Positions 16,939 through 62,400 of a DNA stretch of 64,000 bases are shown one piece after another. Position 1 is the first letter of the stretch; the number at the start of each line of letters is the position of its first letter. The notes under the pieces were generated by a model, which was given only the letters and a program-made list of their open reading frames with translations, was not told where the DNA came from and ran no database searches. Origin of the DNA: Clavelina lepadiformis (taxonomy: Eukaryota > Chordata > Ascidiacea > Aplousobranchia > Clavelinidae). Location: assembly GCF_947623445.1 (NCBI RefSeq), contig NC_135244.1, forward strand, positions 19,096,860 through 19,160,859, written 5' to 3'. A program made the translations under genes and the position numbers.

Positions 16939-19900
16939 ATGGTAAAAATTAAGGAGCAGTTGATTCTTGATGCCTCCTTACTGGCAGACAAAGGAGAGAC
17001 GTTTTTAAGAAAAGAAGAATTAAAATCTTCCACCAGCACACTTAATTATCAAAAGCCTGTCTGTCCATACATAAGTAGCACTTTCGTAGACCTGGAAGAG
17101 GAATTTAAGCATTTGCATACTCATACATTTGTTCAACTCAATGAACTGTGCAATAAGCATGGAAGCTATTTTGCACCACTTGACCATCGTCGCACTGCAC
17201 TTGATTTCAGATCATCTTCGGATTTTATTCTCAAAACTGCACTTGACAATGTTATTTCTTCAGCTCCTTTCTTCATGTGTGTAGTTGGAAACCACTATGG
17301 GCTTCATAAAGCTCCGGACTCTGACCTTTTACCTGCATCTACTTCGTATGTTGCAGTGTCAAGCCAGACCAATCTTTCACTAATGGATCGTAACTTGTTA
17401 GCAGCTGCAAATCATGGTTATCCCTGGGTTCTGGAAGAGCAATTTCAGATGTGCAGCATGATGGAGCTGGAAGTGATTTTGGCTTGTTTTGCTCTTGAGC
17501 ATGACTTCCCAAAATATAGCTTTATCTACATTAAAGATTGTTACCATAACTACCTCCATAAAGAAAATAATCTGCTCAGCGCATCAAACATAATAGACGA
17601 TTCGGACTTGGACAATTTTTTTGAAGTTGAAAGTGTATATGCTCAAGATCGATTGAATGATCTCAAACGGAGAATTGTCAACAAGGGTCTAACTGTAAAA
17701 TTTTTCACTTCAAAAGAAGATCTGGGAAACCTGATTCTTCAAGACTGGTCCGAAGTTATCTTAAGTCTTTTACCCAAGCCTTCACTCTATTTTGAGCAAG
17801 GTAGTGTATGCGGGATACTTATTTATTTGTTATGATTTTGGTAAATTATGCAAGTACAGAAGTGTAAGGGGAATGTTTTAGTCTTCAGTCATAATTTCGC
17901 ATTATTGTTGTGAAATCTAGCGGTATGAGCGTAGTTTAACCTGCACTAACACCGGGGTAATTTTAAATATAAAGTTTATGTGTTACTTGGAGCAATAATT
18001 AAATCAATTAAATGACTCAAAAACTGTACTGTTGTAGTGGACTGGGCTTATTAGTAGTGTAGAGTTTTTATGCTATTGTTAACAGAAACATTCCTCTTGG
18101 GTTGACAATAGGGATTTAAACTATAAGCTATGAATGGTCAGGCTGCTAATGTTTGCCATTGTTTATATCAATGGCACAAAGTTCATTTTAAAAAGATTGA
18201 GTAATAGGTTTTTTCAATTAGATTCACTGGCCCATCGACTAAAGTTCTTTCAATAATGGAAATTTAAAGCTACCACTGTAAGAGATAGCATTAAGGTATT
18301 ACACTTCTTTTGTGTAGCCGGTCCATTCGCTATCAATTGACGTCTGAACCACAACAGTAACCCTTTAATAGTGGGCACCATTTATCAGCTGATTTGTGAA
18401 CAATTGTTACATATATATACATTATGTTGTAAAGGTGATGATATTCATACCCAATTATGGTCAATACAATCTCTGCTACCAAAAATTCAACAAAAGTTTC
18501 TCGAATATGACGGGCTGAAGCAGCTCGAATTTGAACTAACAAAGCATGCCCTTTCCATTGCTGGTTTTAATAGCAGCGTTACCTTTTCCACAAATGATCA
18601 AGGTAGGAAGTACTGTTGACATAAGTCAGAATATTGCACAAATATTTTTGGATATATTTTTTGGCAGAAAGTAAAATGTACAGCGAAGATGCTATGTCTG
18701 TCAATGGGTTTAAACTTGGTGATGGTATTTTTTCTACTTCATCATCATTCATCCATTCTATCAAGTTGGTCTATTACTCTTTACAGACATATATTTTTAA
18801 TAATAAAATGTAATTGTTTTTAATTTAAGTTTATACATGTAACTTATGTCAATTGTGGCCAAATTGTATAGTATTCCAATATCTTGAGTATCACTTCAGC
18901 ATTTTGAGTGCCACTTGTGGTTTGCCAATAACCAAAGTAATAATGCTTCAGTGTTTATATAGGCCATTCATTTTGGCTATTCAAACACTCCACCTTTTTA
19001 AGTGTTTGGACATCGAATAAAGACCAAAACCTGTAATTTTGATTCGGTTGAATCATATAATTGAGCTAAAAGCATTACATACCTATGCAAGATTTGGCTT
19101 ATATACTGATATATAATGCTTTGTGGGAATGCACTTTTTGCCAGAGACACATTTAATGTGCCACGTGTGCAAAAATTACCAACATTTCTGCATGATTAGT
19201 TCAAGGGGGTTACCCGAATCACATGAAACAGAACAAAGAATTTTTACATTGGTCGGTGATCCTGGCACTGGAAAGACTGCATTAATTGCACATTGGCTTC
19301 ATAAATTTCAAAGGCAAAACCCAGATTTGTTGGTGAGTGATTTCTTTTGACACAGCTTTCACTTTATCCATGCTGTAAGAGCTGTAGTTTTAAGAGTTAC
19401 AATTTTACGCAATGTATTAATACATATAGTATCCGTCTTTAAATGTGCAATTGCATGTATATATGTCTTAAAACCACAGTTTGATGTTATTTTTAACATG
19501 ACGTTTTTAGGTAAGTGTTTTTTATAGATAATATCGGCTTTTATTGGTTCTTCCTACCTCAGCTATGATATAACATCATTCTGTAGAAGATGTATCCGAA
19601 CTTTACGGGAAAAATATTATGACACAACGTGAGCAGATTTACATTAGTGTATAATAGCCAAGGTTACCAAGGTTTCCTTTGTCTAAGATTACTTTCTTTA
19701 AACCAAATATTTCATCTGCAGTAGTATGCCCGGTGATCTTTTGTCAGATGTGGAATCGTATGCCGGGTTATGCGACACTTTTGCCTCTTCGTTAAGCTTA
19801 GTTCCATGTCTTCTGGTTATTGATGGTGTTAACAGCTTGCGGCATGCCATGAGTGAAGATATTGGATCCGTCAAAGGTAATTTCTTTTCTTCCTTTGCTT

Positions 19901-35263: not shown

Positions 35264-35574
35264 CAGGTTGGTTCGTGTACACTTGACTCTTTGTGCGAAG
35301 GTGAACGCTGTTAGCTGGTCCAGGATTTGTTTTTTCGGTTTAATTTACATTTGCATTTGAACTGAGAACATGTCAGATGAATATGTTTTGCAGTTAAAGA
35401 AGTATTTATGTGTATTGCATTGCATTGCTATGTGATAAAATTAAAAGTTGAAAAGGGCTTCTACGAGTTGGGCGAAGAACTCACAAAGATTATTTTATTA
35501 CGTGCAGAGATAAACGACAGATTTACGAGAGCTTTTGAACAGAAATTCGTTTGTGATTGACATTTTGGAAACCA

Positions 35575-38500
35575 ATGGACGATTCTAATGCCTTCATGTT
35601 TGGCAACAATTCAGCGGCGGTCGCAATGTCTGCTCTTCAAGCGGCTGCATCAGCCAGTATGATGGACGGTAAGCCTCAGGGAGCGATGTCTTTTTACCCA
35701 TATTCCGCGTTCCATGCTAACTCCACGATGGGATCCACCCTTCGTCCCATGCATGCAAGTCTCGCCAATGGCACCCCGTTCGGAATAAACGATATACTAA
35801 GTCGGCCTATCGCAACGTCGGCCTCGGTAGGGGAACAAACTGGCGCACCTTTGGCGAGCCTGTCCCCCAGTTCCCAACCGGCAAACCTTTACCCCAATTC
35901 GATGGGTCAGGGGGCAGTGATGGCGCAAGCGGCGGCAATGTACCTTGGAAACGGAAGCGTAAATATCTCACCCAATTCTGGGATGAGGTACAGCAAGCCT
36001 CTGGCTGAACTTCCTGGTCGACCCCCTATCTACTGGCCGGGTGTGATATCAGACGACTGGAGGGAAAAGCTTTCAATGCACGGTAAGTTTTACAGTTAGT
36101 GATTTAGCAAAAGTACTGAAATTTCTGTCTGTCGCGATTACGATCGGCGTTGGCATTAAACACTTTTCTATCAGAAGCAAGAAGGTATCACTGCAAAGGT
36201 TGCTGCTTGAGGTTAATCTCGTTGGGCACGCAATATGTGAACCGGCTTTGATTTAAATTTCAATTTTTTGACATTGTGATTTGTAACACTCAACGGACAT
36301 AATAAAATACAAGTATATACAGTCCACAAGCCTATAAGGCCGCACCGTGGTTGTTTGAGTGTAACAACCCCCCACTAAGGCAACACTTAGCCTGTGCGAA
36401 CAAACAAGCCAATGGCACAGTATGTACTGACAAGTAAAATGGCGACATGAGGTGCAGGGTTTCCTCGCTGGTCGCTACCGTTTGAATGTTTTTTCCACAT
36501 CTGTCCTTGACCACATAACTGTAGTCGTCTTTTGAAGCGCGAGGATAAGCGTAACACGTACAAAGCAAAAGGAATGACGTAATAATTTAAAATTGAAAAT
36601 GTGAGTGTCGTCACGTTTGCAATGTAAGAATGTTTTCTCTTATATTTGAAATTGCTCTCTATTGTCATTAAGAAAATAGACGCTGAAGTCATGACGCCCT
36701 ATATAGTTAAGGCATCATTTTATTTTTTGTTTCGTTTTGTTCTTGTTCCTTTTTTGTTTTTTGTAATTGTTTTTTATTTCTTTTTATTTTATTTTCATTA
36801 TTTAGCAGATATGTTACAAATAATTTGCTAACAATCCATATAAATTCCGTAATTTTGTCGAAGTTGTTAACTTTTCGACGTGTTGTTTTACAGGTACGCC
36901 ATCGACTATCGTGATGGAGAAATACGGAAGAAAGAAGCACACGAGGCCGACTTTTTCCGGTCAACAGATTTTTGCTCTGGAAAAAACTTTTGAACAGAGC
37001 AAGTACCTAGCAGGACCAGAGAGGGCTAGACTCGCGTATTCTTTGGCAATGACGGAGTCACAAGTAAAGGTAAAAGCGTTTTGCTATTTTAAATATACGA
37101 TTTGATACAATGAAGGAAACATTTTTAGTTAAATACCTGTATGTTATATTTTGCACTTAAATTGTTGAGGTAAAGATTGCCAAAATTTGCACATATATAC
37201 AAAACAAAAAAAACAGATTTATTTCATGTTGTCGATGGATTAGTATTCAAGCCAACAAAGATTTAACTTCTCCTACTGGCAAATGTTTCGAGTCAGGATT
37301 ATTTATTTGACTTTTTAACGACCAACCTCTTTAACCCACCAGCCATAAATTACATCTTATATTTTGCCAACATATGCTCCGGTCGATGTTATACTGAGTT
37401 TCAACCATGCAGATAAGCTTCCTGTATTTTTTAAATTTAACATTTGTGATCAATGTCACTTGGCGTAATTAAATTTTTGTCGCCCTAATTGCACAAAAAC
37501 GTTTTAAAATTAATTACGCCGCCTAATATTAAATATACAATATGTTTTAAAGATAAATCAAGAGTTTTGAAAAATTTCGCAAACTAGATTTTATAACATT
37601 GAATTACCAAAATTCAGAAGACGTTTGACTCGCTATATATTTCAAATAAAGTGGCTAGCTTTTAAACGAAAAATACTCTAAATGAAATAAGTTTTTGAAG
37701 CGAAAACAGAAAGTGCTGTTTCGTCAGTAAGAGTATTAAGATGACCTTTAATACCGCTCGAAGATTGAGCATTTTAGCAAATTTTATTTGAATTTTTTCT
37801 GACACCAATTCAATTTGCAAGAGCTTAAAATCTCCCACGGGTCATCAATTAGAAAACATGTCACGCATTAATTGGCTAAATAGGCTTTCGCGTCGGCGAT
37901 ACAGACGCAAATTGGCTATTTATCTTGGCTTTAATTCGTTAAAGGGAAAAGTTCAACCGGCTAAACTTTAGTTGGCCTGTCCTAAGCCATTATCCTCGAC
38001 TTTATGATAATCGTAGAATTTTAAGATAAAGCGACAATAATATCCATCTTCCTTTTCTTTTCTCCTGGTGTTTCTATACTTAAGTGCCTTATGCTTGGTT
38101 GCTTTATACTTATGCTTGGTTTTCACGATTTTAAGGGGTAAAATTGATTTTTTTTGCGAAAAACAGAAGCAGAAAAATTCGTTAATGGCAATTGTTATAA
38201 AAGCATAATGTTTTACACCAACACTTTTCTGGAGTGGGAGACGAAGGAGGCCCAATCGGACTCAATCGTGACGTGTTTATTTTTATAAGGTGACGTAAAC
38301 TACGAGCACGAGATTCTGTTGGGAAGTTCATTTAACAAAAATGTATAATCTGATCCAGAAGAATTTCATTGAATTCAGTAGATTTATTGTTTAATTATAT
38401 CGCAGTGATAAAGCAATGAGACAAAAATGTCATTTTGTGCTTTCCCAACACTTGCTCTTCGCAAGCGATTATTATGGAGATTTAGTGGTATTATGACGCA

Positions 38501-39986
38501 TTAACATAAAATCTCACGTAATCGGACAGTCTGACCGTTGACGTTCATCTGTGACGCGTTAAACCAGGCGGAAAGCGATACATTCACAGCAAAAACTGGG
38601 TAATCGAACGTGTGAGAAAGTGTGATTTCAACCCATGCAAATTAACACGCGACAGCGAAGCGACTTGTCCAATCAAGTAGCGTCCTAAATTGTTTGTTTT
38701 CAAGGACAATGGACATTAATTTGCTTCATTTGTCATTAACGATGAGCATCTGCAGAATTCAGACAATTTTAAAGTGTCGCATGTTACACCATACGATTGG
38801 TGGCAGACAGAGTTATACTTGTTCCTTGTTGACCGTTGTGACCTGAATTAACGACATACTGCCGTATGGACATTTACAGCGACCTGTAATTTTGTACCTT
38901 TTCTAACAAGATTTTTGACACCAAGTTATAAAACTTTCCCAAAAAAAGTAATTGATGTTTTCAAACTTGAATAATGGCTACGATTAAAAACATTTTTTCA
39001 AAGTGGTAAAAATTGTTCACCAGTTCATAAGTAGATTTTACAAAATTTGATAATTAATCTTTGTACAGTGTACTGGCATCGATACTTGAGATGACCGCAA
39101 ATCGAATTATAGGTTAGACGCGAAATGGCGTAATTAATGGCCGTGCTTTAATCGGTAATCAATATGGAAAAACCGTAGAAACGTCCTAGTAAAAGTTCAA
39201 AATTAAGCATGATACAATATTAGGAGAAATTTTGAACAAAAACTCAACTTGATTAAAATTGACGTTTGACGACCTTTTCTTTGATAGGTCTGGTTTCAAA
39301 ATCGAAGAACAAAATGGCGGAAGCGTCACGCTGCAGAAATGGCGTCGGCTAAGAAGCGCCAGGATGGCGAAGTGACGCAAAAGATGAAGGAACGCGAAAG
39401 AGACGCACAGACGGAAAATCTATCGTCCTATCCAAGCTCACTCGTCGAGTCGGACAAGGAGGATAAATCGCCATCCGGAGGACATAACAATTTCGATAAC
39501 TTCTCCGACACTCAATCCACTTCCGGATCGGTGGTAACCTCCAAACAAGGTTCAGATAACGACGGAAGTGACGTAGTTAGCGGTGACGACGAAGATGCCA
39601 AACCTTTGCCTCCGAATCGTCCATCTTCCTCTGGTGCTGCTGATGACGAGGACTCGGAGACGGAAAAAGAGCGCCAGTTTAAATCACTCCTCTACGGTGG
39701 ACAAAGATCCCGCGGCGAACAGTACGAGCAAGCTCCTGGAGCATATACAACTCAATTCTCCGCTTGTCCTGGAGAGCTCGCACCAAACGGCGGGATTCAG
39801 TCCTTTAATTTCGGAATGCTTTCGAATAAATCCCCCGGAGTAAGCTCTGCGGGATACCGCAGCTCCGGAACAAACTCCCTTTGCGTGGGAACATCCTCTA
39901 TGGTTGGAGCGGATTCGATATTCAACGGATGTCCGGCAGCGTTGTCCGGGGGCCTGGTGGATGAAATAAATCTTCAAAAATATTAA
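35575..39986 (+). CDS. Nkx6: NK6-class homeodomain transcription factor Nkx6
   Basis: Nuclear repressor-type transcription factor; the family patterns ventral neural tube and endoderm. Coding exons are 35575-36082, 36894-37069 and 39288-39986 (phases 1 and 0), giving 460 residues. There is an eh1-like motif FGINDIL (69-75) matching GINDILSRP of vertebrate NKX6. The NK6-specific linker [16 protein letters not shown] is at about 141-156. The homeodomain, about 183-242, begins [17 protein letters not shown] and ends [14 protein letters not shown]. Intron 2 splits it between QVK and VWF, the usual NK6 position. [10 protein letters not shown] follows, then an acidic Ser-rich tail of about 210 residues, longer than in vertebrates. 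The first in-frame ATG (MDDSN) is chosen because the frame upstream lacks another ATG. The 2.2-kb intron 2 is the largest of the gene and holds repeated TAATTA sites. Confidence 0.95.
37462..37520. repeat. Inverted repeat with homeodomain sites in Nkx6 intron 2
   Basis: GGCGTAATTAAATTTT (37462-37477) faces AAAATTAATTACGCC (37506-37520) across a 28-base spacer that itself contains CTAATTG. The arms are almost perfect complements (one base of slippage). A third GGCGTAATTAA occurs at 39127-39137 in the same intron. TAATTA is a homeodomain core, so this could be a cooperative binding site. A small hairpin-type element is the alternative. Confidence 0.6.
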
Positions 39987-42500
39987 ATTTGATCATCAGG
40001 CCTTGGAAGACTTTGCATGCGCCAGAATCACCCAAAGAAGACATATCTACGTTTTGTTACCGACGAGTTTGTTTTGCTTCGTAAAAAGCTGGTTGAATCT
40101 TTTAGAGCTTAACTTTTTAAAGAAGGTTTGAAAACCAATCTGTTTTTTTTTTCATTACACAGACGGAATTCTTTGCTTAGGTTTGCATTCATCGCTTAAT
40201 TCAGTTCATGGCAAAGTATTTCGTGTTTAAAAAATGTTTTAGAGCAAAAGCTGTTACCATAGAGATTGAGTGTTTTTGGACCAAATGTGATTTGTTACTG
40301 TTATATATGACTGTCATTTATTTGTAAGGCGTATCACTGTTTTGTTATCAACGCGTTTTAAGTTATTGGCTGAAGAAATTTCCTCTAACGCTCTCATGCA
40401 CTGTTGTATCACGCTTTCAGCCAGTTCTGTTTCTCTTAGCCCATTCGAGTTTCTTTAGGGGTAATGACAAAACTATAGGCAAATCGAATACAGAATCTAA
40501 TACGGTTAAAAATCGGATTTTCTATAGTTTTAGCAAAACTTAAGCAAATTTCGAAAGATTTTTAACGCGTGTGAGACAAACGTAACGTCGTAACGACATC
40601 ATCCCGTTATATGACTAAGTCCTACCCTTTAGCGAAGGTTAATTGCATTTTAGATTTCAACTGTTTGGTTTGAAGCAATCGATCACGGATAATCTAACTT
40701 ACCCGATCCTTGCGGTTTGAACGACACATTTTTAATGGATACTTTAAAAGACGCTCGCATAATGTTGTAACAGGTTGAAGTGGCGGCTTCATTGCGCGAG
40801 GTTAGAGACTTGTATCAATCACCACATAACGAGAACACGAGGGAACCCACTTCACTATCCAACTATCTACTGCCGTATGGTGGTTGCCTGTTCCACAGAA
40901 ATTTTATCGCTTTTGAATGATGAATAGTGTTTAGACTTAGAGCATGGTGGATAATATGCTATAGGCTACGCTAAAACCAGAAATATAATCAATTATGCAA
41001 AGATAAGCAGATTATGATCCAATCAATGTAAAAATTTCCATTTTAAAAAATATTCTCCTGGCTTTTAGGCTGAAACTGTTACCGAGTAGCCTACGATTCC
41101 AATGCTTTGTGGTTCATCATAGGGTTTTCAAAAAATTTTTATTAACAGTTTTGATTAAATTTGTGGCAATAAACATCGCTTCTTTGCTTACTTCAATCAA
41201 TAATAATCGTATATACTGTACAAAATCCCTTTTATCCTCCAACCTCCCATTAAGCAAAAGGGTCATAAAATAGACAGTAATATCAAACACTACAGCATAT
41301 ACATTACGTGTTGCTTTATACATATCTACACTAACTTATACAAAACTAATTCTAGTAAATCCACTTTCCCGAGGCAAGGGTATTGCATTCTTGCGTATGT
41401 CATATAGAACTACAGTAATTAGCAGCTAACTTAACTTTCCGAAGTTTCGATAAGTGTCGAAACCACGACTTTCCTAAATATAACGCCAGCGCACATCTGT
41501 GAGTTTCCGTTGCCGCCATTAACAATGGTGAAATTGGCGTAGGTAGTTGAAAGAAAGTAACCGCCGATGTAAATCAGGTAAATGCTGCTAGCGTGCTCCG
41601 GACCGCAAACACAGGGTATTTTCCGGAGTTTTTTCTCTTACATGAACGCTTATGCAAACACGAAAGCGACAATGCGCTTAGCTGTTTACTAGAGTTTGAC
41701 GATCTAATTTTCCCACTCCGGAAACTCGTGTGGGATAGTTTCTATTATTGATGTAAAAGGCTTACCCATCAACAACAAAGTATCACTAAAGATTAAACTC
41801 ATGAAGTTGCCTTTTGCCTGTGTGTAGTGGATTTCAAAATGGAGGAGTTTTCGTAAGAAAAACAAAGTCACCAACGGTTCAATCATCAATTTTGAAATTG
41901 TTTAAACACTAAAACGAAACATTTAAATTAAAAAGTGGAAATATATAAAAGTAAAACGCATAGCAGTGGAAATTACCTAAAGCACCTTTCTTTCATCCGT
42001 TCTACCGTATATGGCAAATATATAGGATAGGCCTGTCGGTCTGTCTGATACTTCCTTTTGTTCATTTATTCTGTTCATTACGTTACTTTTCAACTTTCCC
42101 GTTTGGTGATATGTTTGGATGAACTCCACCGTCTACAACGAGGTTTCGTAGAAAATGGTTTAAAGAATTTCCGTTTTCCATTAAACAAAATCTCAACAAA
42201 ACAAAGTTTGCGAACAAAACAAAAACTGGAAAGCGAAACGTTAAACTTTTAACCGCTAAGGGTTTCGTTTTCGCGGAATCAATTGACACCTACACAGCAA
42301 ATTCCCTGGACGATCGGTCAAAGGCAACTTCTTGTTACGAAATCCATTTGCGGGGCATTGCATATATATTCCGTATAGGTGTTACGATGTCGAATCAGAT
42401 TACGTCCAGAGAATTGCAAGACAGTCATTGTACTAATTTATATTTGCTATAGGCAAAAGCCTTTCGTTTAGTTTAAAAGTTTTCTACTTTTCAAGACAGC
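39987..42500. other. Spacer between Nkx6 and the IL-17-like cluster
   Basis: 2.5 kb without a supported gene. The last 230 bases (about 42280-42500) are the promoter region of the first IL-17-like gene and are duplicated at about 48530-48780. Nothing else was recognised. Confidence 0.45.
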
Positions 42501-43838
42501 ATGAAGTCTCTTGTAAGTATGCTTAATAATTTTTCTTGCGTGCCCTCTATCCCAGAGGTAACGACGACTTTATCACCTAAATTTATAACGTTGCCATATA
42601 AAAGTAATGTACATGCTAATTGTGTAAAGTTTGCAAAACCGTTTCAAACTATTGGAAATATTTGTTAATTGAAATTCAAAATCGAGGATAATTGCAGTAT
42701 TTTGCTGATTTCTTTGCTATTTGTTCAAATACTCCACCATGCGGCGTATAGTTAACATGATGCGAAATGGAAATTTAGTCAACTGAAATCAGAAATTTTT
42801 AATTGATATAATTTTGACGATTGAGTTTGCTGCTTTGTTAGAGACGAAAACGTTAAAAGATCTAAGCAAGCGCGACTTCCTTTGTTTTTAGATAACAATC
42901 ATTGCTTGCTTGTGTCTCTGTGGGATCGCCTTCCCTCGTAAAAACAACACAAATAAAGACAGAAGAAGTAAAGACAATTTAGTAAATACTGGAATGAGAA
43001 AAAAACAGAGAAAGCTGCAGTCACAACGCGAAATAGAGTTCATTTGTTCAATGTCACGAAATGACAGAAGGTTGCAATTGCTAAATTATTTTATATTTTA
43101 GTGTAACCTGAATATTACGACCTAATTATTTATATTCTATTACATATACTCTATATATTGCATAAACATTCATATTACGACAAAATTCATTAGTTATACC
43201 TATGTAAGCTATTATACTATATGTTGGAGTTGTCTTTAATCTATTTTACGCTATTCCACTTTATATCTTCCATCTACTGTAATTACCGTTGTAACAAATG
43301 CTAGAAGCTTGTTTTTTTAAATAAGTTTTGGTTACTCAAATATGTAAAAATTTAAATTTTTTCTTCATCTACTTCTAATCCTTATGAAATCGTCAAAGAT
43401 TTTCCTGCAAATTATAATTTTGCGTTTTCGTTGGTGTTTGAATTAAGCAAATTTACCGTTCTTTGCAGGAAAGTAAGAGAGTATGGTTGCAAGCCAGAAC
43501 TCGGGCCAATCAACAAGCATACAGTTTACACCAACAGTGTTGCTCACTGGATAAACGATCACGTGGTTTGTAAGGAGTTGGGATACGAAACAATTCCATT
43601 TGTGTGGTGCCAGGATCACTGCCAGTATAAAGACAAGAACATGGGACTTGTAAACATCACCGATTATGTTCCTGTACCTGTAACCTGGCAGATTGAGAAA
43701 AAAGTGACGTACAAGATGAAAAAAAAGATCTTGAGATGGGAGATTCCTGTTGCCTGTAGCTGCGTGCGTGCGTCGGACGTAAACACAATTCAGCTCAGAG
43801 GAAAGCGCCATACCTGCAGGCGCTTAAAGAAATTTTGA
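42501..43838 (+). CDS. IL-17-like secreted cytokine, gene 1
   Basis: Predicted secreted cystine-knot cytokine of 186 residues. Exons are 42501-42512 (only MKSL), 42892-43070 and 43469-43838, phases 0 and 2. The signal peptide is MKSL plus ITIIACLCLCGIAF, made across the first junction. A basic propeptide-like stretch follows (RKNNTNKDRR, MRKKQRK). The C-terminal domain has the IL-17 pattern: a Trp (HWINDHVVC), then IPFVWCQDHC, then VPVPVTWQIEKKV (compare SVPIQQEILVLRR), and a closing VACSCVRA (compare VGCTCVTP). The final domain is on one exon. The ORF alone cannot reveal the first two exons; the first is a 12-base mini-exon. It is the first of three intact paralogues in direct orientation. 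Assignment to IL-17 rests on spacing and motif resemblance, and another cystine-knot family is possible. Confidence 0.7.
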
Positions 43839-44399
43839 TTTGAGGAAAACATTTTGTCAACGTTGTCTGCCGCTAGTTGTTATGCATGTTACTATTTTAT
43901 AACCCTGTGTTTTTGCTATAACTTACGCAATTATTTATTCATAAAGCAATAAAGAGTCAAGCATTGCTATGGTTGTGGTCAAGTGTAGCCTGAGTTAGAA
44001 TCTACTGAGTTCAAGTTTAAGTTGATTCGTCTACTTTCAAGAATCGAAATTCCCTCTAATGTCCATAACAGCCATTCACTTATATCATAACGTTGTAAAC
44101 GGCTTTAAGTGGGATTTAATCAACCTGCTGAGAAAAGCTATACATTAATACGACAGCACCCATATTTACACATGCGCTCGTATATAAGTGAATATATCGT
44201 ATATCTTAGCAGAAAACTTCCGTCATGTTAACAATGGGCTGGTTAAACGATCGGTAAAATACTACGTTACCTCATGTTCTTATAAAAGTAAATATTGTAA
44301 TGGTAAAGTATCGTTACTACATGTGTCGAGCATCACCAAGCGCATATCGCTAATGTGTTAATGTGAATGTATTGCTATACAATGTTCTAATGTACATTG

Positions 44400-44680
44400 G
44401 GCTTGGTTTGCAAAAAATGTTACCAAATAGTAACAAACAACGTAAGTATAGTTATTCTCTCAATTCTATGTTCATATGCTCGTTGTTAAATGGTTTCTTT
44501 CTTTCCTGCAGGAAACCGAAACGTAATGGTCAAATATCACTATCAAGGCTTAAAGACATTAAATTATTAGATAATACAAGACACACGTGGAAACGTTACT
44601 CATTGGACAAACGATCACGTGATTTGTAAGAACTTGAAAAAAGAAAGACCCTTCCTTTTATGGCTGTAATGTTGTTGTTG
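44400..44680 (+). pseudogene. Decayed IL-17-like copy
   Basis: The part after 44512 resembles exon 3 of gene 1 at the nucleotide level. A CTTTCCTGCAG acceptor is kept. CATTGGACAAACGATCACG matches the CACTGGATAAACGATCACG of gene 1 (TrpINDHVVC region), followed by TTTGTAAG(A/G)A in both. An upstream donor ACAAC/GTAAGT at about 44432 is also intact. Upstream of the match the frame has shifted, and the second half with the CxC motif is missing. So this host-gene copy can no longer code the cytokine domain. Confidence 0.6.
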
Positions 44681-45572
44681 AGGTTATGCAAGCTGGATGA
44701 CTTTAAGGAAAGACAGAGGACTGATTCCTGTTTTGTATATTTTTGTGTTTTTACTCACACACTTTTTCACTATTACCGAGAAAACAATAGCTTTAAACTG
44801 TATCACTTTCGTATTCAAAATTACAAGGTGGAAACTGTGCGATTCAATTTTCAATTTTGTTTGCTTTTTTGTATAAATCGTAACCTTTTTTAAATCCATC
44901 ATCATTCATCAATGGTCGATTGATTTATACATCACCATATATGACTCTGAGTCATATTTAATTAATTGAGGGAGAGGTAGAATTTTGTTCTTTTTCTTCT
45001 CTAAGGGAGAAAGTTTCGGTAATTTTGGGAAACAATAACTTTCTTTATTTGTGTAGAGGACATATGAACAGATATAGTCTTTAGATCTAATGTGGTAGAA
45101 AATTCCCATCCCTTTTAACAATCGAAATTTTAAACAATACACAAAAGAAATGCACTACCTCATATTCATACGTAAATAATAATTTGAATATCATAAATTC
45201 AACAATCCACTTGAACAATCAATTCTTGACCGATGACGGAATGTCAGAAGTATAGTCCAGAAACCATATAAAACTGCGTTTTTTATTCTATTATACCAGC
45301 AAGAAAAGTTTTACGGTATTCAGTATTGTTTGCACAGGTTACCTCAGCATCCAAGAAAAGAAACAACTAGTTTCTTTGACTCTTTGTCATACGTCAATTT
45401 ACGAAAGTGTTTTTACATTCACCAATTTGAATATACGTTATTATTAACGAAATAACTTTCCCTTATTTTTTTCAAACGTTGTTTCATGCTGAATGTATTG
45501 ATAGAAAAACATATGTTCTCTCAACCATTACCGATATAAAACGTCCGTCTTTAGTTCCTCTGCAACTAAAGA

Positions 45573-45580
45573 TATAAAAG
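45573..45580 (+). promoter_or_regulatory. TATA box of IL-17-like gene 2
   Basis: TATAAAAG 153 bases upstream of the start codon at 45726. The surrounding sequence from about 45157 is partly repeated at 49735-50260, upstream of a decayed copy. Confidence 0.5.
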
Positions 45581-45725
45581 TATGCAGCGGCCTATAGGAT
45601 TCTCACAATTAGCTCTGGAATCCACAAACGCCAATTGAACCAAGTTAACATTCAGTGCTAATGCTTAAAACTTTTTGATTACTTTTTTATCGACGTTTCT
45701 CGTTCAACTGGTTGGTGAAGATAAT

Positions 45726-46567
45726 ATGATGTCAGTGCAAGGAATTTTGTTGGTTAGTCCTTAAAAAATAACTCTTAGTATCTTTTTAAACATTTAAAAG
45801 AAAGATTTCTGGAAAAGAAAAGGTTTAAATGGAAGGTTTTATAACGGTTGGTGTAAACCGTTGTTTTATTTTTGCAGACCTTTCTACTGATTTATGGCTT
45901 GAAGTTGGATTTCACATGTTTTGCTGGAAGTGTATCACCTGATATTTCTGTTAAAGAAAAACTAATCAACGTTATTGAAGATCCAAGCGCTAAAAGGTAA
46001 CTCTTTCATTGTAATTCTGCGTAACAAGTAATGGAATACAACTTATAAAAAAGGTCACTAAATAAAATTGTAGTGTGTGAAGAAATTGTAAAAATATAAA
46101 AACAAAAATTACACCAATCTTCGATTAGTAAAGGCATGCAGTGATTTTTAATTAAATGCAAGGTATATTTTTCATTCAGCAATATAAGTAGATACTGCGA
46201 ATCGGGGCTAATTATCGACAATGAAATACACGTCCCCGGATGGCGCAGTGCGTACGTATTATGCAAGTTCTTCGACCCCGATGCAATTTGGTTTGCAAGT
46301 TACGATGGAAATGATTGCTCTTACTCCAAAGGGCGTCGTGGAAAAACAAAAGTTTTAAAATCTTACAAAGCTGAGCCGATCACTTGCAAAAGAACCTTCA
46401 AAGTGAGACAGTCCAACAATAGTTCTGTTGAGCTTGAACTCGAGCTGCCGGTCGGATATACATGCGTTCACAACAAAAAGAAAAAAGCGAGAAACAAGAA
46501 AAAAAAAGTAGGACTGGGATCAAAAAATCATTCTAAAAGAAGAAACAAGAAGCGCAATAGACCGTGA
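45726..46567 (+). CDS. IL-17-like secreted protein, gene 2 (basic tail)
   Basis: 177 residues from exons 45726-45752, 45878-45996 and 46180-46567, phases 0 and 2, the same architecture as its neighbours. The signal peptide begins MMSVQGILLTFLLIYGLKL across the first junction. The cytokine domain is diverged: RYCESG, SAYVLCKFF, IWFASYDGNDC, ITCKRTFKVRQ and a closing LELPVGYTCVH, which aligns with VSVGCTCV of IL-17, except that the usual CxC is reduced to YxC. It ends in a strongly basic tail of about 35 residues (runs of K, KKKK, RRNKKRNR), which may bind heparan sulphate or matrix. No other gene lies within the unit. A TATAAAAG stands upstream. I infer membership of the IL-17-like family from shared gene structure, position and the C-terminal motif. 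Confidence 0.6.
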
Positions 46568-48519
46568 CAAACTTAATTCATTCTTACACTATACTAGTTG
46601 GCTGCTCAGCCATTGCAACTTTTGGCTATCCCTATATACAGTATCGACTTGTCTTAAAAAAGCAAATTTATTTATCGCTTGTGCAAGTATTTTTCTTGGT
46701 CATTTTCTATCTTTTCTTTTACTGTATGTTTTATAATTAACTTCAAATAACTATACAATTGCTGTTGTAACGCGATATACAAATGCTGAGTTCTATTCGT
46801 AACGCACAACAAACTTTTTCTCTTCAACATATACCCTGTTACACTACGTTATTTTTTACGTACTTTTTCTTTCAAATGTTTTATTCGTTTGCCGTTGATG
46901 TTAAGGTAAATTCTTAAAATAAAAAAACTTTAGATGTACTTGCAGTTGGTGCTTTGTGTTATACCATATATAGGCTCTTACCGGTACCTTCACCTGAAAA
47001 TCATTTAAAAAGTGCCAAAAAAGCTATAAAGTACTGTAAATTTACAACTTTGACACATCGATATTTATCATATAACGTTTAATGTTAGTTTTATAGGATG
47101 TTCTAATATTATAAGGTAAATATTTCTATTTGTATGTTTTTTTCTATGTTTTTTCAGCCTGTTTGTCGTCAGCGAGTAAAAGTCTGGTAGGGTTGCGTAA
47201 CAAAGATTTTCCGTATGCAAAAATCTTGTGACAAGTGTTGGCCAAGCTTTCAAGTTCGACTACAAATTTTCAACAGAATGCAGGGTAGATCTTAGAATAG
47301 GTTACTGGACAAAGCAGTATAGTCAATACATGCTGTAGAATAGACCAATGCTTTACAACCGATGTGTTAAAGCGTAACTATATACGTGACCGGAACGTTC
47401 GTTTTACAGATAAAAACACCGTTTAAAAAATGTTCATTGTGTAACGAAAATATGTGACGTGTTATTTATAGTATCCTATTTTTTACCGTTTTTATGGTGT
47501 GTTAATTCTCTACTTGATATGCGATGATTACTTCACGGTGTTTTGGTTTTAGTTGATCAATTGCGATTATCGTTGTTTATCTCACGTTCTGTGCGTTCTT
47601 ATCTTATAAATATCTTAAAACCTCACCTTTTACATTTTACTCATGCTCGAGCCGTTGTTAAGTGATTTAAGAAGTTCGGTTTGGTTTTGGTGGTGGGGGT
47701 TGTTTAATAAAATAAATTGATTTCTTGGGTTTTACTGATGGTGTCGCGATCCACCGGGAATGTGGGAAGATAGCCTGGCATCGAAAGCAAGAATTTTCTG
47801 TTGCAATTGTAACATAAGGGTGACTGAAAAATTGGAACACATCACGACATGCAATGAAAACTCGTATTTTTTGCGCAACCTGCATTTTGATGTTGATAAG
47901 GTTTCATCTTATTCCAGCATAGAGTGAGTCGGGAAATGATGCGAACGAGACCCGCTCAAAATACCAACAATGCAGAATAGTTCTATAACAATTTCAAGAA
48001 ACGTTAACTTCAAACTGTTTTTGCGAACAATGAGAAAAATGTTCACCAATTGTGCAAAAATATTTGCAAAAACAATGTAAATAAATAAACAAGCAAAAAT
48101 ATTTCATTGAAACAAATCAAAATATAGTTTTAGTGCTCCATATTACTTTCTCTATTTATATACATTGTGAGATGTGCCGTCAACTTTTAAAAAGTGCATG
48201 CAAGTGTGTTGAGAGTAATAAAGATTTCAGAGGACCGGAGTAGAAATTAGACCTTTGTCTGATTTCTTAGAATTTTTTTCAATGTTTAATCTCTTATTGT
48301 TCTAACTATTGCCGAGACCGCATTTAAAAGATATGTAGGATGCAAAATGCACATGTCTCTTATAGATTATACGTAATCATTTAATAAAAAGCGATGACTT
48401 TGGCAAAATTAAATCTTGATGCAACGCGCTACTATTAATAATGTGTAGTTGCAAGGATCTGCGCAAAGTTATATATATCTTAATACTGGCACTTTTATAC
48501 TTCAACTTTCGTTTTCACT
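46568..48519. other. Spacer within the IL-17-like cluster
   Basis: 2 kb, AT-rich. No intact cytokine exon was recognised. Reading frames on the minus strand (for example 47667-47885) have no family resemblance. Confidence 0.4.
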
Positions 48520-49317
48520 GCGCTGACAAACACCTATATACAGATGTACAGCTTACATCTCAAGTTTCCTTGGGTGATCGATGAAAAAGCAACTTCATGT
48601 TACGAAACTCATTTGCGACGCATTGTATAAGCTGTAGTACTCTGTATAGGTGGTTACAATGCTGACATATAGGTTTCGTTTAAAGAAGTTCAAACGATCG
48701 AGGACTTTGTACCATTTTATACTTGCAGCAGACAAAGCATTCTGTTGAGTTTTGAAGTTTTTTAAACTTTTCAAGACACCATGAAATATTTTGTAACTAT
48801 TTATATATATATATATTTATAGTATAGGCTATATAGTATATTTATACTATATAAATACTATAAATATATAATATGTATACTTTTTAAAGTCAACTACAGT
48901 AAATCGTTTGCATTCGGTATCTCTAACAATTGTATTATTGTCTTAATTCATTTTTGTCTCCGTAATTTTTCCTTTAATTTTTTATTATTGTCTTAACGCT
49001 AAAGTTTTGTTGCATTTCAAACACAAAAAAAATTAGAAAAATCAAAACAAACGGATCAGTTTCTTCTTTTCTTAATCACAATCATTGTCTGCTATAGTGT
49101 GTTTATTTGGAATCGCCTTCACAATCCTGAAATCGGATAACAGGTTTTGGAGTAATTGTTCTATTTCTATACTGACCGAGAAACAAAACAGTGACAGACA
49201 AACAAAACCTCATAACGTACTCCTTGGCAGAAGCATAGCCGGTTCCCCGTATAGCTGGAAAAAAACAAACTATACTGTTCAAAAGAAGAGCAATGTTTTC
49301 GAGGTCTTGCCATAGAA
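48520..49317 (+). pseudogene. Decayed IL-17-like copy with duplicated promoter
   Basis: About 260 bases ending at 48792 align with the promoter of gene 1. GCAACTTCATGTTACGAAA corresponds to GCAACTTCTTGTTACGAAA, and CTTTTCAAGACA precedes the ATG in both. A mini-exon ATGAAATATTTT followed by GTAACT stands in place of ATGAAGTCTCTT/GTAAGT. At about 49079 ACAATCATTG and GGAATCGCCTTC match gene 1 exon 2 (ACAATCATTG, GGGATCGCCTTC). The acceptor TAG is lost there, the frame differs, and no cytokine exon 3 follows. It may still be transcribed. Confidence 0.6.
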
Positions 49318-49734
49318 TAAGTTTCATTCCAAGAAAGTGTTTTTTCCGGTATTGTATGTCGCTCTTTACTAAATCTATATTGCTGTTTTTAGTCCTTTGT
49401 TTATACTTTCAAAATATACGTTTAGGTTTATTTTGAAAACTTCAAGCATATATATTTCTTATCATATATATTTCACCTAATTTATAAGTTAGAATTTGCT
49501 GACCTTTTTACTTCAGGTTTGGCCTTTTTTTAACCGTAATCAAGGTCCCTAAAAGTGATTGGTATAACACGTCGCCGTCAATGGCGTTTACGCCATCTTG
49601 ATTTTCTGCCAGAGGTAATGTTTCTATTTTAGAAAATTTCACCATTATTTACATAAACAGATGTATAAGGGTAAACCATATTAACTGGAATATTAATTTC
49701 GGTCTCTTTAACAATGAAATCTACACGTAAAGAC

Positions 49735-50450
49735 CATTACCTCATATTCATTCAAGAGTAAATAAAAAAATTTCGGGAATCCCCTTCAAGTGGAAATGTC
49801 TACCACTGTCAGACTGACCGAGTGTCAAGACTCAAAAGTAGACCATATACCGTTAATAACTGTGTTTCTTCGTTGTTACCAACAAAATTAATAACGCATG
49901 CAACATTGTTACAATCACACAATGAACTAGGAAAGTATAGTTATTACAGTTTCTTTAAATTTTAGTCACGCATCAACATACTATACATTACATTTTTCTA
50001 CAATTTAAATATAATAAAAGAAACCATTTTCTCCCATCTTTTTACGTAATGGTGTGTTACCTCAACCAACAACAACATAGAACTTTGGCCTATAAACATT
50101 TCTATAAATCGAAACTGAAAATATATAGCCTAAATGTATATATATATAAGTAAGTACGCAACGACCAATAAAAGGTATTCACAATAAATCGTGGAAATTT
50201 ACAAGAATTACTTAAACCGAGTTAAAATTGAGCGCTAATATCCTAGAACTCGTTGAAACAATTTTTGGTGAGTTACCTTTTTCTTTTCGCTCACCATTCT
50301 TCGACCAGATTCTTCCAACAGGGGACACTGAAAATCAATGTGAAAACCTCCAATTATTTTCCTAAAACCACGAGTAGTAGTAGTCCACTGCACTACAGTT
50401 TCACTGCCCTATTAGCAATTTTTCTCACAACTCAGAAACGCAATCGTTAA
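49735..50450 (+). pseudogene. Second decayed copy, gene 2-type promoter
   Basis: The block from TTACCTCATATTCAT (49740) to about 50260 follows, with many gaps, the order of the region upstream of gene 2 (45157-45720). Shared pieces are CCTCATATTCAT, a GACCG/CCATATA stretch and GCTAAT just before the start. A mini-exon-like TTGAAACAATTTTTG/GTGAGT has TTG where ATG is expected. Further on, a hydrophobic stretch (FTALLAIFLTT) looks like a signal-peptide exon but is out of phase. No cytokine domain follows. Confidence 0.35.
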
Positions 50451-51824
50451 AAAGAAGAGCTTTCTATCAGCTGTGAAATGATAAAACAAAGTTTGCAAAT
50501 AATGACGACTTTTCTTCCAAATCAGTTCACACAGTGCGTTGTTATTGAAAGACGTGCAGTTACAGATTAAGATTAAAATAAAATAAATAGAGGACACATT
50601 TGAGCCAGAAAATCACTTTGAAAATGTGACAATTTAAAAAAGTCAATTTGAAAACGAAGCACTCGAATAGTCCTATATGATATATGTGTAGCTCATAATA
50701 ACGTAGGCGGCGGCGCGTTGTTGGTGTATTCGGGGCAAAGGACAAAAACTTGAAATTGCGCGTGCCGACTTTTATCACGTTTATATGTGTTTGCCTTTAG
50801 CGTCATCTGTCGACGTTCCTGGGAAATTTCATTGGTTTGTTTGTTAGAAATTAACACTGTGTTTACTCTCTGCGACGATAATTAATTTGACGTAAAGAGT
50901 GAGTTAGAGTCCCAAAGTCCTGTGTTATCGTTGCGCCATATCTTGAAGCATACAGTATATGCTTTTTTCTGAACAGGTAAATGTCCATATTTTTCCCTTT
51001 AAAACTCCCTCTAACGGGTTTTCTTTTATTCCGAAGAGGAACGTATTTCTTCCAAAAATTTTCCACCAAGTGCAAACGATAAACGCCGGCAACATTAATC
51101 AAGTCGCGAAAATGCGTAGGCGAAAATGTGGTCCATTTAACACATGAAGTAAAACAAGTGGTTTTGTTTGCAAATTGTGCTTATAGTAACATATATCGAG
51201 AAAAGCCCAGCAGACAAACAGAGTTCCTCTTACTACTTTACGTAGCTTTGAACTCGAGCGAAATACAAAAAAGCTGGTGTACCGAAATGTATTGCGACAG
51301 CAACGAAAGTGGGGAATCACCACTAGGGAGTTGCGTGAAACTTGTTCAGCGATCTCTTTTAAGAACCTTTCTAGGTTACCTTAAGTAACTGCATTGCGTA
51401 CTTTAGCCTTTGATAATTAATTTAAGTAGTGGACAAACAAAACATTAAAAAAAAATCAAACTCAACGTGTTACCCTGGAAATTACGCCCCGTCTATTGCG
51501 ACCGGATAAAAATCTGTCGTTCCTGGCTTTGACCATTAGGGGACCTCATGAGCTGTACTTTCCGGCATGACGTAAAAGTCTGGAGAGGAATAACCAGTTG
51601 CGCTGGGAAGAGAAAGATATCAGGTGGGCAGGATTTTAGTTTCTTGGAAGAAACCAGTGCAACGCAAAGGCATTTTTGTCATCAGGTAGAGTCGATATAA
51701 GGGATGCCTCGAAGGGTTAGATATCATACAGCTCCACAACCTCATGAGACCATCATCAGAGGAAAGAAAAAGTTTTTCAAGGAAAGATTTTACCCTCGCA
51801 AGTTCAGAAATACTTAAAGTCAGC
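50451..51824. other. Upstream region of IL-17-like gene 3
   Basis: No gene supported. A TATAAGG at about 51696-51702, 123 bases before the start of gene 3, could be its TATA box. This promoter region does not resemble those of genes 1 and 2. Confidence 0.4.
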
Positions 51825-53341
51825 ATGAATTTGCTAAAGGTAAGAATTTAGTTTTTAGATTTGCGAACTCCTAACAAACTAGTAGGATTACCTTTTTATA
51901 AGATTTTTATTAGTATATACTATATACTATATACCTTCATAGAAAAAGATTCAAAACCATTTAGAGTTTAGAATTAATTTAGAAAAAGTGTTTGAAAAGA
52001 ATGCTAATATAAATTATATTTTGCTGACACCAGCAACAAGCGTTTGTTTGTTCAATAGGATTCCATCTGGGGTCAAGCAAAGTCTGTTTTTAGCGGAACA
52101 ATGCATATGCCAATCTTTTATATCGTAGATAAAAAAATAGTTTTGAGTGTCATCAAATAAGTTGAGCTATAACGCAATACACTAATAGATATCTTTTTGT
52201 GTACTTTGGTCATAGTTTCTTTATTTACATGACAAAGTAGCTCTTTATTTCAAAGATACGTTCTTGTGCGATACGCAATACAAAAAATACGCTTACAACA
52301 CCAAATGGGTTGTTCCTCATATTAATGACGACTGTTTTGGTCGATTATGACGAAGCAACTTAAGTCTAATCCAGGTGTTCCACCCATTGGCTCATGTCGT
52401 CACGATCACAATGTTCTTATAAAAGAACACAAACAATAGGCTTTGCTATAGAAAGGGGAATTCCCGCATATTTTGTGAGCAAGGAGCGTATTGAAATTAG
52501 TAGAGCGTGAGATTATAGGCACAATGTGATTCCAAAAACAAAGGTCGCGTTACAACTGTGTAATTGCGTAATTGTGTAATGGCTATTTAAAAAAAAAAGA
52601 TTTTCGTTTTCGTTACGGTATAATCCAGGGGGAAAATCGCTGGGAAGTCGCGACCTACTAAATAAATTTTTTCAACATTTTATATACCCTTGTTATTCAC
52701 CTAACGTCATACCCTCGACCGCAAACCCTGACTATTTCATTGACGTGAATCCGTTTTTCAGGCATTTTTACTTTTATTGATTGCTACCTCCATTTCTGCC
52801 GATGACCCAGAAATTGGCCAGCGAAAATTGAAAAAGCTGCTCAATAAGAGAACCGACATGACGAACAAAAGCGATAGAGAGTGAGTTGTTCAAAGATATA
52901 TCGTAAAATTAAATGAACAATGAAATATTTCAACGGCATAATATCGATGTTACGGTTTTGCACAGGTTTCTCATCGACAGCAAATGCTACCTCTTGACTG
53001 ATGAGAATAATACAATAATATCCTCTGAAGACCATCAAACCAAAGCAGCTGTAGCTCGTTGGAATTATATTTTTATTCAATGTGACAACCTGTTAAAACC
53101 CGACATCTCCTTGGTGCTATGTGACCGGTCCTGCTACAATCTAAAAAAGAGCACTAAGTTTAAAAGACCGAAAAAACTCTCTGGATACCAAAGCGTACAT
53201 GTCACGCGTGAGCGGGAGTACGAATTGCGAGATGGAAAGGGATTTGTTAGGCTGTCTTTGCCTGTTAGCTGCAATTGCGTTCTTCGAAAATCGCTTTCAA
53301 AAAAAGCTTCAAATAGAAGGAAAACGAACAGGACCAGCTGA
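51825..53341 (+). CDS. IL-17-like secreted cytokine, gene 3
   Basis: 169 residues from exons 51825-51839 (MNLLK), 52762-52880 and 52966-53341, phases 0 and 2. Exon 2 is 119 bases, exactly as in gene 2. The signal peptide MNLLK + AFLLLLIATSISA ends near residue 18. The cytokine domain gives the clearest IL-17 match in the cluster: ARWNYIFIQC (compare SPWDYNV), LVLCDRSCYN (compare QAQCRNLGCIN), then YQSVHVTREREYEL (compare NSVPIQQEILVLRR) and RLSLPVSCNCVL (compare LVSVGCTCVTP). A basic tail KKASNRRKTNRTS closes it. IL-17 proteins are dimeric secreted cytokines signalling through IL-17 receptors; ascidians are known to carry several. Same strand as the other members, so the cluster arose by tandem duplication. 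Confidence 0.75.
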
Positions 53342-59484: not shown

Positions 59485-62400
59485 ATGGCCTCCAACAAGA
59501 ATAAATATCATCCAAAACTGAATTGCCTCATCGTTACAGCAAACGTGGGAACCCTGTTTGAAGATGTAAGTGGTGTTTTCACCAAAAATAATGTCTTATC
59601 TTCACAGTTACACGAAAATGCCTTTCGCTGCTGAATTTTATTTAATTCTTTTTTACTTTGCAGCCGGAGGGAATCCAAGATGCTTGGATTGGGGAAGTTA
59701 CAAAGGTACCAAGTATTCATAGCCTTTTGTTTTGGAAATTCTGACTAATATAGGTCTGCTGTATTTTGCTGTACATACGGTGTCATTGAACGATTTGTTT
59801 GGGCTTAGTTACTCCAATTCAGAGTAATTCCTTTGCTTAAAAATTATTTTTTGTTAAGTTTTATCTCACTACCTTTCACATGTAAACCAGTTTTGCTTGT
59901 TTGTTAGGTTGTAAAGAAACATGAGCCCAATTTCATCGCTCTGCATTGCCAAGAAATAGGTGGAAAAGATTATAAGTCTTCCCTGGACCCAGTCAATGCT
60001 TTTTTCAAGTAATTTTGATTAAGTGTAATGACAGATACTGGTATTTAATTGTACTTGTGAAAAGGTTGTTAATACCATCCATGTGTCATTTAAATTCATG
60101 TAGTATTTTTACCCGAATCGGCCTATGTACCGTATTTATAAAATTGTAGGCTGCCCTCGATTGCAAACTGCAATTGTAAACTAGTCTTATGGTACAGCAA
60201 GGTAATTAAGCCTCTGCAATTGACTGTCTATACCAGGGATGGGCAAACTGCGGCTCTCCGGCATGTTTTTTGTGGCTCTTCTAGTCGAATCGTAAAATTC
60301 CAAAAAAATTGTAAAGGCTACCAAGAGTACCGTTTATGAACGTTTCTGTCTATTTTTTCTTTATTTATGGCAAAGGTTGTCAAAGTGCGCCTCGCCAACA
60401 TGTTTTTTATGGGTCTTCTAGCTAAAAAGTAATATCCCAAAATGACTACTAATAATATAATAACCAAATTGACCATCATTACTGATTTTGCGGCTCGCTA
60501 GAGTTTATATTTTTCCGCAAGTGACTCTTTCATTGAACAAGTTTGCCCACCCCTGGTCTATACTCTACAACAATATCACAAACAACAGACAATGAAGAGA
60601 GTTTTGTCAATTAACTCTGGCCAACAAAAATCAGATAAAATTTTGATAAGATAAAAAATGTACGCCATAAAACTGCAATCAGTACAAGTACAATCAACCA
60701 TGGTACAAACCACTATCGTTGTTTGCTCTGGGTGGTAGCGGTTTAAGTGCCAGTGGTCAATGTTCCCTCTAAGCTGCGCAAATGCGCACTGCTGACACGG
60801 TCTCCGCGCACAGAAAATCTGTGCTGCGCACAAGAAAACAATCCAACCTGTATTGAAAATAAAATAAACGCATAATAATGGCCAAAGTGCGCACGTCTGA
60901 TGTTGCTCACAGTGGTCCAAGGGACCGCTCAGGGAGTTAGAGTGTTTGCTCAGACTCGTGAAAAATTAGAGGGAACATTGCCAGTGATTATGATTGGCGA
61001 TAAACAAAACGTTAAGTTACATTACTCTGTGAAATTTCCTTTCATCCTAGTAATGCAGTACATGTTTGTTGTAGGAAGTTCATTGACCATGATGAACTTG
61101 CTGATTTTTCTGTGGTTCGTGGATATCTTGATGGAGACTATGACCATATCGACCAATACACGGTTAGTGAATAAATGCGAGTTAAGGCCGTTGTCTGCTC
61201 CTAATATTTAGCATATTTCTGACACTTTATGTCATTTTCCTTGACAGGCATTAGGAAATTTTTATTTCATACATAAGTCGCTGGAAAATGTCACCATGTT
61301 TGATTACTCAGGTAGGGTAGCAATAACATTCGAGTGTCAAGATGCTTTCTGTTTAGTAAACTAAACCAATACGTTTCATTATTTTATGCAGACAAACAGT
61401 ATGTGAAGGTTTCTGGAAAAGAAATTGTCTCCAAAGATTTAAGTTCTTTGCCAAACATTCAAAAAGAAAAGTTTGAACAAAATTTTTTTCCCGATGTAAG
61501 TTGAATGAAAAACAACCACTAACAGTATTTGTTCCAGGCTTCGTCAATTTTTTTACCAGTGTAAACGTTAACAAATGGCAAGTAATTTTAATTTTATTTG
61601 TTAATTAAACAATAAATTGAGCCTTTTTGAATATCCTAGATAAGAACTTATAGTCACTAAATCCATTTTGCTTGCTGTTTGATAGCAAGATTAAAAAAAC
61701 AATTTTGGCTTCTCAAAACCTTCATGGCCTTGCTGATGGCACCTGGCTCATAAACCCTAACAAGTAACAACTTAATAGTTTGTATGTTTTTAATAGTGCA
61801 AGTGGTCAAGGAAAGGATACAGCAGAGCACGCTGGAGAATCAACAACAAGTAACTAGTTTCATTTTCACAGATACAGAAGTTTTTCTAACTTTGTTTTCG
61901 AAGTTAATGAATAACGGGGCAGAGTATATTGCGCTTTTTAGAGTCATCGAGTTCGTCAACATTCATTTGTTTCACGACGATAGCAACTTAGTGTCCATGA
62001 AAAGCACTCCATCGCCCTACACATCTTATCGAAAACGCGCTCTAAAGTTCGTAATGCAAAGGTATAAAGCACCTTAAGCTTTCAGAGGCTTTAAATTTCA
62101 TTCAACCTTGAATGAGTCGCCATTGAACGGGAACAGGAATTTAGTCGTAGGTTTTCACGTCAATATGTCAGGTTATATTTAGAACGTCGAATTTTAACGA
62201 TTGAAATTGTCAGGTTGAAAGAGCTGTATCCCACAGACGAAGGAGTTTGCTTTATCTGTGGAGACTTCAATTTTCGACTGGATGTGAAATCGTTAGTTCA
62301 GGTAACCATACAGTACATTGTCGGGCGTAAATTCACCTACTTTCTATCTAGTGCCTATCATTACGTATGAAAACCATCCATTTACCTCAGGACTTCTTTG

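Follow-up and report, generated by a model that had tools for sequence, protein, structure and literature searches.

What kind of protein is encoded by three small genes that stand in tandem on chromosome 5 of the ascidian Clavelina lepadiformis, and how does such a cluster evolve? The genes, here called A, B and C, lie in a window of 64,000 nucleotides (chr5:19096860-19160859; positions are counted from its first letter), between the ATG of A at 42501 and the stop of C at 53341. Most likely they belong to a genuine family of divergent, probably secreted proteins that are related to IL-17 and work like it. The genome searched comprises 209,060,895 bases in 95 contigs, slightly less than the 210.1 Mb in 102 scaffolds given for the published kaClaLepa1 assembly in the available part of its description (PMC10884593).

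Gene models

The three models were read from the sequence alone, and leaders were judged by eye from hydrophobic runs.

42501..43838, forward strand: gene A, exons 42501-42512, 42892-43070 and 43469-43838; 186 amino acids, open frame, knot cysteines C-x3-C and C-x-C
45726..46567, forward strand: gene B, exons 45726-45752, 45878-45996 and 46180-46567; 177 amino acids, open frame, basic tail
51825..53341, forward strand: gene C, exons 51825-51839, 52762-52880 and 52966-53341; 169 amino acids, open frame, basic tail

Each model consists of two short leader exons and one domain exon, joined by GT-AG introns in phase 0 and then phase 2, with no internal stops and with a hydrophobic leader. The domains end in PVACSCV (A), PVGYTCV (B) and PVSCNCV (C), and the tails of B and C are very basic. 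Pairwise identity is 21% for A-B, 21% for A-C and 23% for B-C over 101-109 columns. The original prediction of three intact three-exon genes in one orientation, strongly diverged yet alike in exon structure and ending in C-x-C or Y-x-C (ACSCV, GYTCV and SCNCV), agrees with these models.

One or more of the three could instead be a relic or a set of mis-joined exons, with only the copies found on chromosomes 2 and 3 at work, which would be compatible with kinship to IL-17. Gene B is without one predicted knot disulfide, the second donor site of A (GTTGCA) is weak, and two decayed neighbours lie in the cluster. All three frames are open across three exons, however, with the same intron phases despite 21-23% identity, and decay or mis-joining is considered quite unlikely.

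A family on three chromosomes

Searches of the same genome with the domain exons of A, B, C and a chromosome 3 member, alpha, identified a family of at least 21 places, with 16 on chromosome 3, two on chromosome 2 (8.78 and 8.98 Mb) and three in the window. These counts are lower bounds and exclude three weak places with E > 0.2 (one on chromosome 1, two on chromosome 3). The chromosome 3 members lie at 17.796-17.845 Mb (array 17796792-17844622), where a gamma-alpha-beta order is repeated five times at about 10-kb spacing (15 places) and is followed by one delta gene. The domain exon is open at 18 of the 21 places; the other three are the alpha copies of array units 3 to 5, which stops or frameshifts interrupt.

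Gene C matches the two chromosome 2 copies and the five chromosome 3 beta copies with E-values of 2.5e-9 to 2.1e-8. Gene A matches its chromosome 3 paralogues at E 0.017-0.043, and A and B match single members at about E 0.02-0.07, so weakly that their membership depends on the family pattern. For one of the alpha genes on chromosome 3 there is a candidate leader exon with a phase-2 junction. Two simple scans yielded no leader exon for one chromosome 3 beta gene and one chromosome 2 gene, but the second scan also missed the candidate alpha leader picked up by the first, so this is not evidence of absence.

Relationship to IL-17

A family alignment (A2) was built from 12 of the 21 places, omitting six near-copies (beta and gamma of units 3-5) and the three broken alpha copies. 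It was compared using hhalign with an IL-17 profile made from eight of the 13 places that PF06083, the Pfam IL-17 profile, finds in this genome (L001-L008), and with a ten-sequence version that adds two IL-17 fragments from PDB. For the family domains, hhalign gave 93.4% (E 2.5e-7) against the eight own IL-17 domains and 92.5% (E 5e-7) against the ten-sequence profile, each E-value applying to a single comparison. Against the ten-sequence profile, the window genes A, B and C alone gave 91.4% and the family without them 85.1%. A smaller IL-17 set of six sequences (A3) gave 81% (E 1.2e-5).

The signal spans about 50 columns and is lost on shuffling with the cysteines held in place. With the ten-sequence profile, the best of 298 column shuffles with fixed Cys columns scored 21.7 versus 41.1 for the real alignment, and the best of 250 other open reading frames, out of 266 in the window, scored 19.1, all 50 with at least five cysteines staying at or below 16.7. 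With A3, 80 shuffles scored no more than 16.9 and the reversed set 13.3, versus 33.8 for the real one. Scored one member at a time, alpha (36.2 and 35.2), beta (31.0 and 29.9), B (30.0, 67%) and C (25.0) stand out alone against the IL-17 profile, and the chromosome 2 copies (24.9 and 21.8) and delta (22.7) do so narrowly.

Several results weigh against this kinship. The original prediction had likened the domain ends to that of IL-17 and named a PF06083 search as a check. PF06083 matches none of the three window domains and none of the 12 family members, and at E 10 none of its 13 places in the genome falls in the window. No match was found in PDB sequence searches with exon 3 of A or with alignments A1 and A2. 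Gene A (19.6) and two gamma members from chromosome 3 (18.7 and 18.4) score inside the shuffle range and join through the family only. Most members have a C-x3-C motif, one residue shorter than the C-x4-C of IL-17. Among five near pairs, the ratios of nonsynonymous to synonymous change (dN/dS) are 0.29, 0.74, 1.49, 0.26 and 0.07; the 0.29 pair alone has more than 15 changes and counts in favour of the IL-17-like ligand reading, and the other four rest on 4-12 changes and range from 0.07 to 1.49. Finally, human IL-17A and IL-17F alone gave 4.2%, so the bridge to IL-17 runs through the ascidian IL-17s, whose own profile finds the PDB entry of IL-17F at E 1e-8.

These profile misses could also be explained by a separate tunicate family of cystine-knot ligands, of Spaetzle/neurotrophin, PDGF/VEGF or TGF-beta type, with a convergent C-x-C end and no SEFIR signalling. 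Several cystine-knot ligands end in C-x-C. The family has a conserved extra cysteine seven residues after a tryptophan (W+7), which to our knowledge is not a feature of IL-17. None of the 12 members has a Pfam match to IL-17 or to any other cystine-knot family; in a scan run up to E 10, in which filters discard most matches above 0.1, the only matches were to two unrelated families, in one member each (E 0.09 and 0.13), and NCBIfam gave nothing beyond two sub-threshold bacterial matches. Against a separate origin, the family profile is not TGF-beta-like (PF00019), with 0.3% in hhalign versus seven own TGF-beta domains, and the IL-17 signal extends over some 50 columns and disappears when all but the cysteines are shuffled. 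TGF-beta was the profile control used among knot families; PDGF (PF00341) gave one genome place. Spaetzle (PF16077) gave none at E 10, where its controls were silent too, so its silence is not evidence of absence. On balance, a separate knot family is judged unlikely.

Taken as profiles, the sequences support kinship of the family to IL-17 as distant homology. The IL-17-like label of the original prediction stands in that sense (93.4%, with TGF-beta at 0.3%) and does not extend to a match with PF06083. Since PF06083 fails to recognise the family, we do not assign it to that Pfam entry.

Domain anatomy and the tyrosine pair of gene B

The family domain has the consensus C...GFAxW-x6-C-x12-C-x3-C ... 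(L/I)PVxCxCV. In A, B and C, the spacing W-x6-C-x12-(C or Y)-x3/4-C and the end (L/I)PVx(C/Y)xCV are constant. The distance from the tryptophan to the knot cysteine is 20 in human IL-17A, equal to that of the consensus. The ordinary IL-17s of Clavelina (L001-L008) share with the family a C..C, a GCxC end and about 50 alignable columns. They differ in matching PF06083, in having CxCx2-3C instead of C-x3-C, and in a last exon that seems to start just before an R-x-P motif.

The four knot cysteines are present in A and C. Gene B has tyrosine at one predicted pair, replacing both the first knot cysteine (W+20) and the first cysteine of C-x-C; the codons, TAC and TAT, are each one G-to-A step from a cysteine codon. 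The loop of B is four residues long, like that of IL-17. The two cysteines at these positions form a disulfide with each other in IL-17F, and loss of both partners would be expected if the family has the same bond here. The paired loss thus fits the predicted IL-17-type disulfide, although as a single case it is weak, since two of six cysteines lost at random would belong to the same one of the three pairs in one case out of five. Gene B may be a natural case of a predicted knot disulfide replaced by a tyrosine pair.

SEFIR receptor-like genes and possible mode of action

The SEFIR profile (PF08357) found 17 places in the genome, of which 13 have unbroken frames of 395-832 amino acids. Nine of these long frames are on chromosome 3 (19.49-19.51 and 20.26-20.27 Mb), three on chromosome 1 and one on chromosome 4; some SEFIR genes lie at chr1:23.37 Mb. 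Ten of the 13 were read for receptor-like features. All ten have SEFIR above cut-off and one strong internal membrane segment, and in six a hydrophobic stretch near the N-terminus was flagged. The IL17R_fnIII_D1 domain passes in one gene (L064; 30.6 bits, cut-off 26), is sub-threshold in three chromosome 1 genes and is absent in the other six. The ten genes look like IL-17 receptors in a single frame. Since one open frame runs from the ectodomain through SEFIR, they look intronless, with an upstream leader exon possible where no leader was flagged. No report of such a receptor expansion was found in a limited collection of literature searched on IL-17/SEFIR receptors in Clavelina, ascidians, tunicates, Ciona and Botryllus.

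On the reading judged most probable, A, B and C encode small secreted ligands, with the leader split by a phase-0 intron, followed by a phase-2 intron and then a single exon carrying the whole cysteine-rich domain. The domain would most likely fold as one half of an IL-17-type cystine knot and dimerise, and the dimer would engage the IL-17R-type SEFIR receptors that are expanded in this genome. By analogy with IL-17 biology, signalling of the Act1/TRAF/NF-kB type would then start in haemocytes or in the pharynx or gut epithelium, and it is from this analogy that we infer an immune function.

The products could alternatively be secreted cysteine-rich effectors with basic tails, acting on microbes or membranes instead of receptors by means of an IL-17-like scaffold. 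The very basic tails of B and C, fast divergence, and tandem duplication with decay would suit such effectors. A domain of about 100 amino acids with a conserved knot pattern, together with the expanded receptor set, suits a ligand better, and no antimicrobial family is among the Pfam matches; the effector reading is judged highly improbable. Under the ligand reading, it is conceivable, and offered tentatively, that Clavelina has a private ligand-receptor arsenal, in which IL-17-derived ligands invisible to PF06083, with 18 open domain exons spread over three chromosomes, co-evolve with IL-17 receptors that have likewise multiplied, seem to lack introns and may stem from retrogenes. Many ligand-receptor combinations would then be available to an invertebrate chordate for signalling in immunity or at the level of the colony.

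Comparison with known IL-17 systems

The following comparisons draw on the available portions of the cited papers. The sea urchin has 35 SpIL17 genes in tandem arrays, five of them seemingly pseudogenic or truncated, and two IL17 receptors of 16-17 exons (PMC5457136). It shares with Clavelina the tandem arrays, very short first coding exons and a divergent subfamily, SpIL17-4, which was missed by BLAST (PMC5457136). Unlike the two multi-exon receptors of the sea urchin, the ten SEFIR genes read here are in single open frames, and the Clavelina ligand family is missed by PF06083. The mussel reference genome has 33 IL-17 ligands and eight receptors, whose genes have up to 11 exons (PMC8353272); ligand expansion and several receptors are thus shared with the mussel, whose receptors are multi-exon.

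Ciona, like Clavelina, is an ascidian with IL-17 ligands and an IL-17 receptor: IL17-1, -2 and -3 and one named IL17R have been studied under immune stimulation, and no divergent clusters are described in the text examined (PMC10433773, PMC6707023). For Ciona, a survey table lists the values 7 and 6 in a portion where the column heads are not visible (PMC8353272).

If the kinship is true, a count based on PF06083 only would miss more than half of the IL-17 ligands of this ascidian, as the profile yields 13 places at E 10 and the divergent family has 18 open domain exons. An invertebrate chordate would then also have an IL-17 system in which both receptors and ligands have multiplied. The expansions compared are ligand-heavy, at 35 to 2 in the sea urchin (PMC5457136) and 33 to 8 in the mussel (PMC8353272).

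Turnover of the family

The window had been described as holding three decayed copies in a cluster shaped by birth-and-death turnover. Two A-like remnants were found well above chance.

44592..44663, forward strand: decayed A-like exon-3 fragment; nucleotide match 44595-44636, 86% over 42 nucleotides to 43539-43580 (E 7.2e-7 versus the window)
48566..49120, forward strand: decayed A-like copy with upstream region, exon 1 and exon-2 remnant; 48566-48800 matches 42302-42520, 72% over 236 nucleotides (E 4.5e-22)

The exon-3 fragment also gave a tblastn match of 50% over 24 amino acids (E 0.002). In the second copy, the exon-2 remnant (49061-49120) has a 4-nucleotide insertion and a 1-nucleotide deletion and is 74% identical to exon 2 of A over 61 columns; no exon 3 was found for this copy. 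A third decayed copy was not found in the gaps between A, B and C by blastn with the A, B and C regions or by tblastn with 12 of the 21 family members. The best leftover, a tblastn match of 26% identity (E 0.02) near 45.26-45.39 kb, was judged unconvincing.

The mutual identity of A, B and C (21-23%) compares with 15-36% to the copies on chromosomes 2 and 3, and the closest relative of C by identity is a chromosome 3 beta gene (36%). In a 12-row tree with long branches, the best topology pairs A weakly with B and places C elsewhere; a grouping of A, B and C was not rejected (p-AU 0.18). As the three genes are no closer to each other than to copies elsewhere, birth and death is best shown in the chromosome 3 array, and in the window only around A. 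The sequences thus indicate that the wider family evolves through segmental tandem duplication and decay, most plainly in that array, and that recent local duplication and loss in the window concern gene A only. The claim of turnover holds for the A remnants and the array; the identities and the tree do not show that A, B and C arose from each other in this way.

Flanking genes and other observations

35557..39983, forward strand: Nkx6-like homeobox gene, upstream and outside the cluster; Homeodomain 41.9 bits (E 9e-11) at 36914-37069, end at 39288
62116-62310, downstream flank: inositol-phosphate 5-phosphatase-like exon; Exo_endo_phos E 0.037, below cut-off

The homeobox gene resembles Nkx6, and the phosphatase-like exon might be from INPP5A. 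The position of the cluster between the two looks incidental.

Also in the window, 16936-17832 holds an open frame of 299 amino acids whose match to DUF4062 stays below threshold (20.8 bits versus a cut-off of 24.7). Elsewhere on the chromosome, chr5:10108825-10143279 contains five weak matches to TGF_beta, at about 32 bits and spaced some 7-10 kb apart, perhaps a divergent TGF-beta-like tandem cluster.

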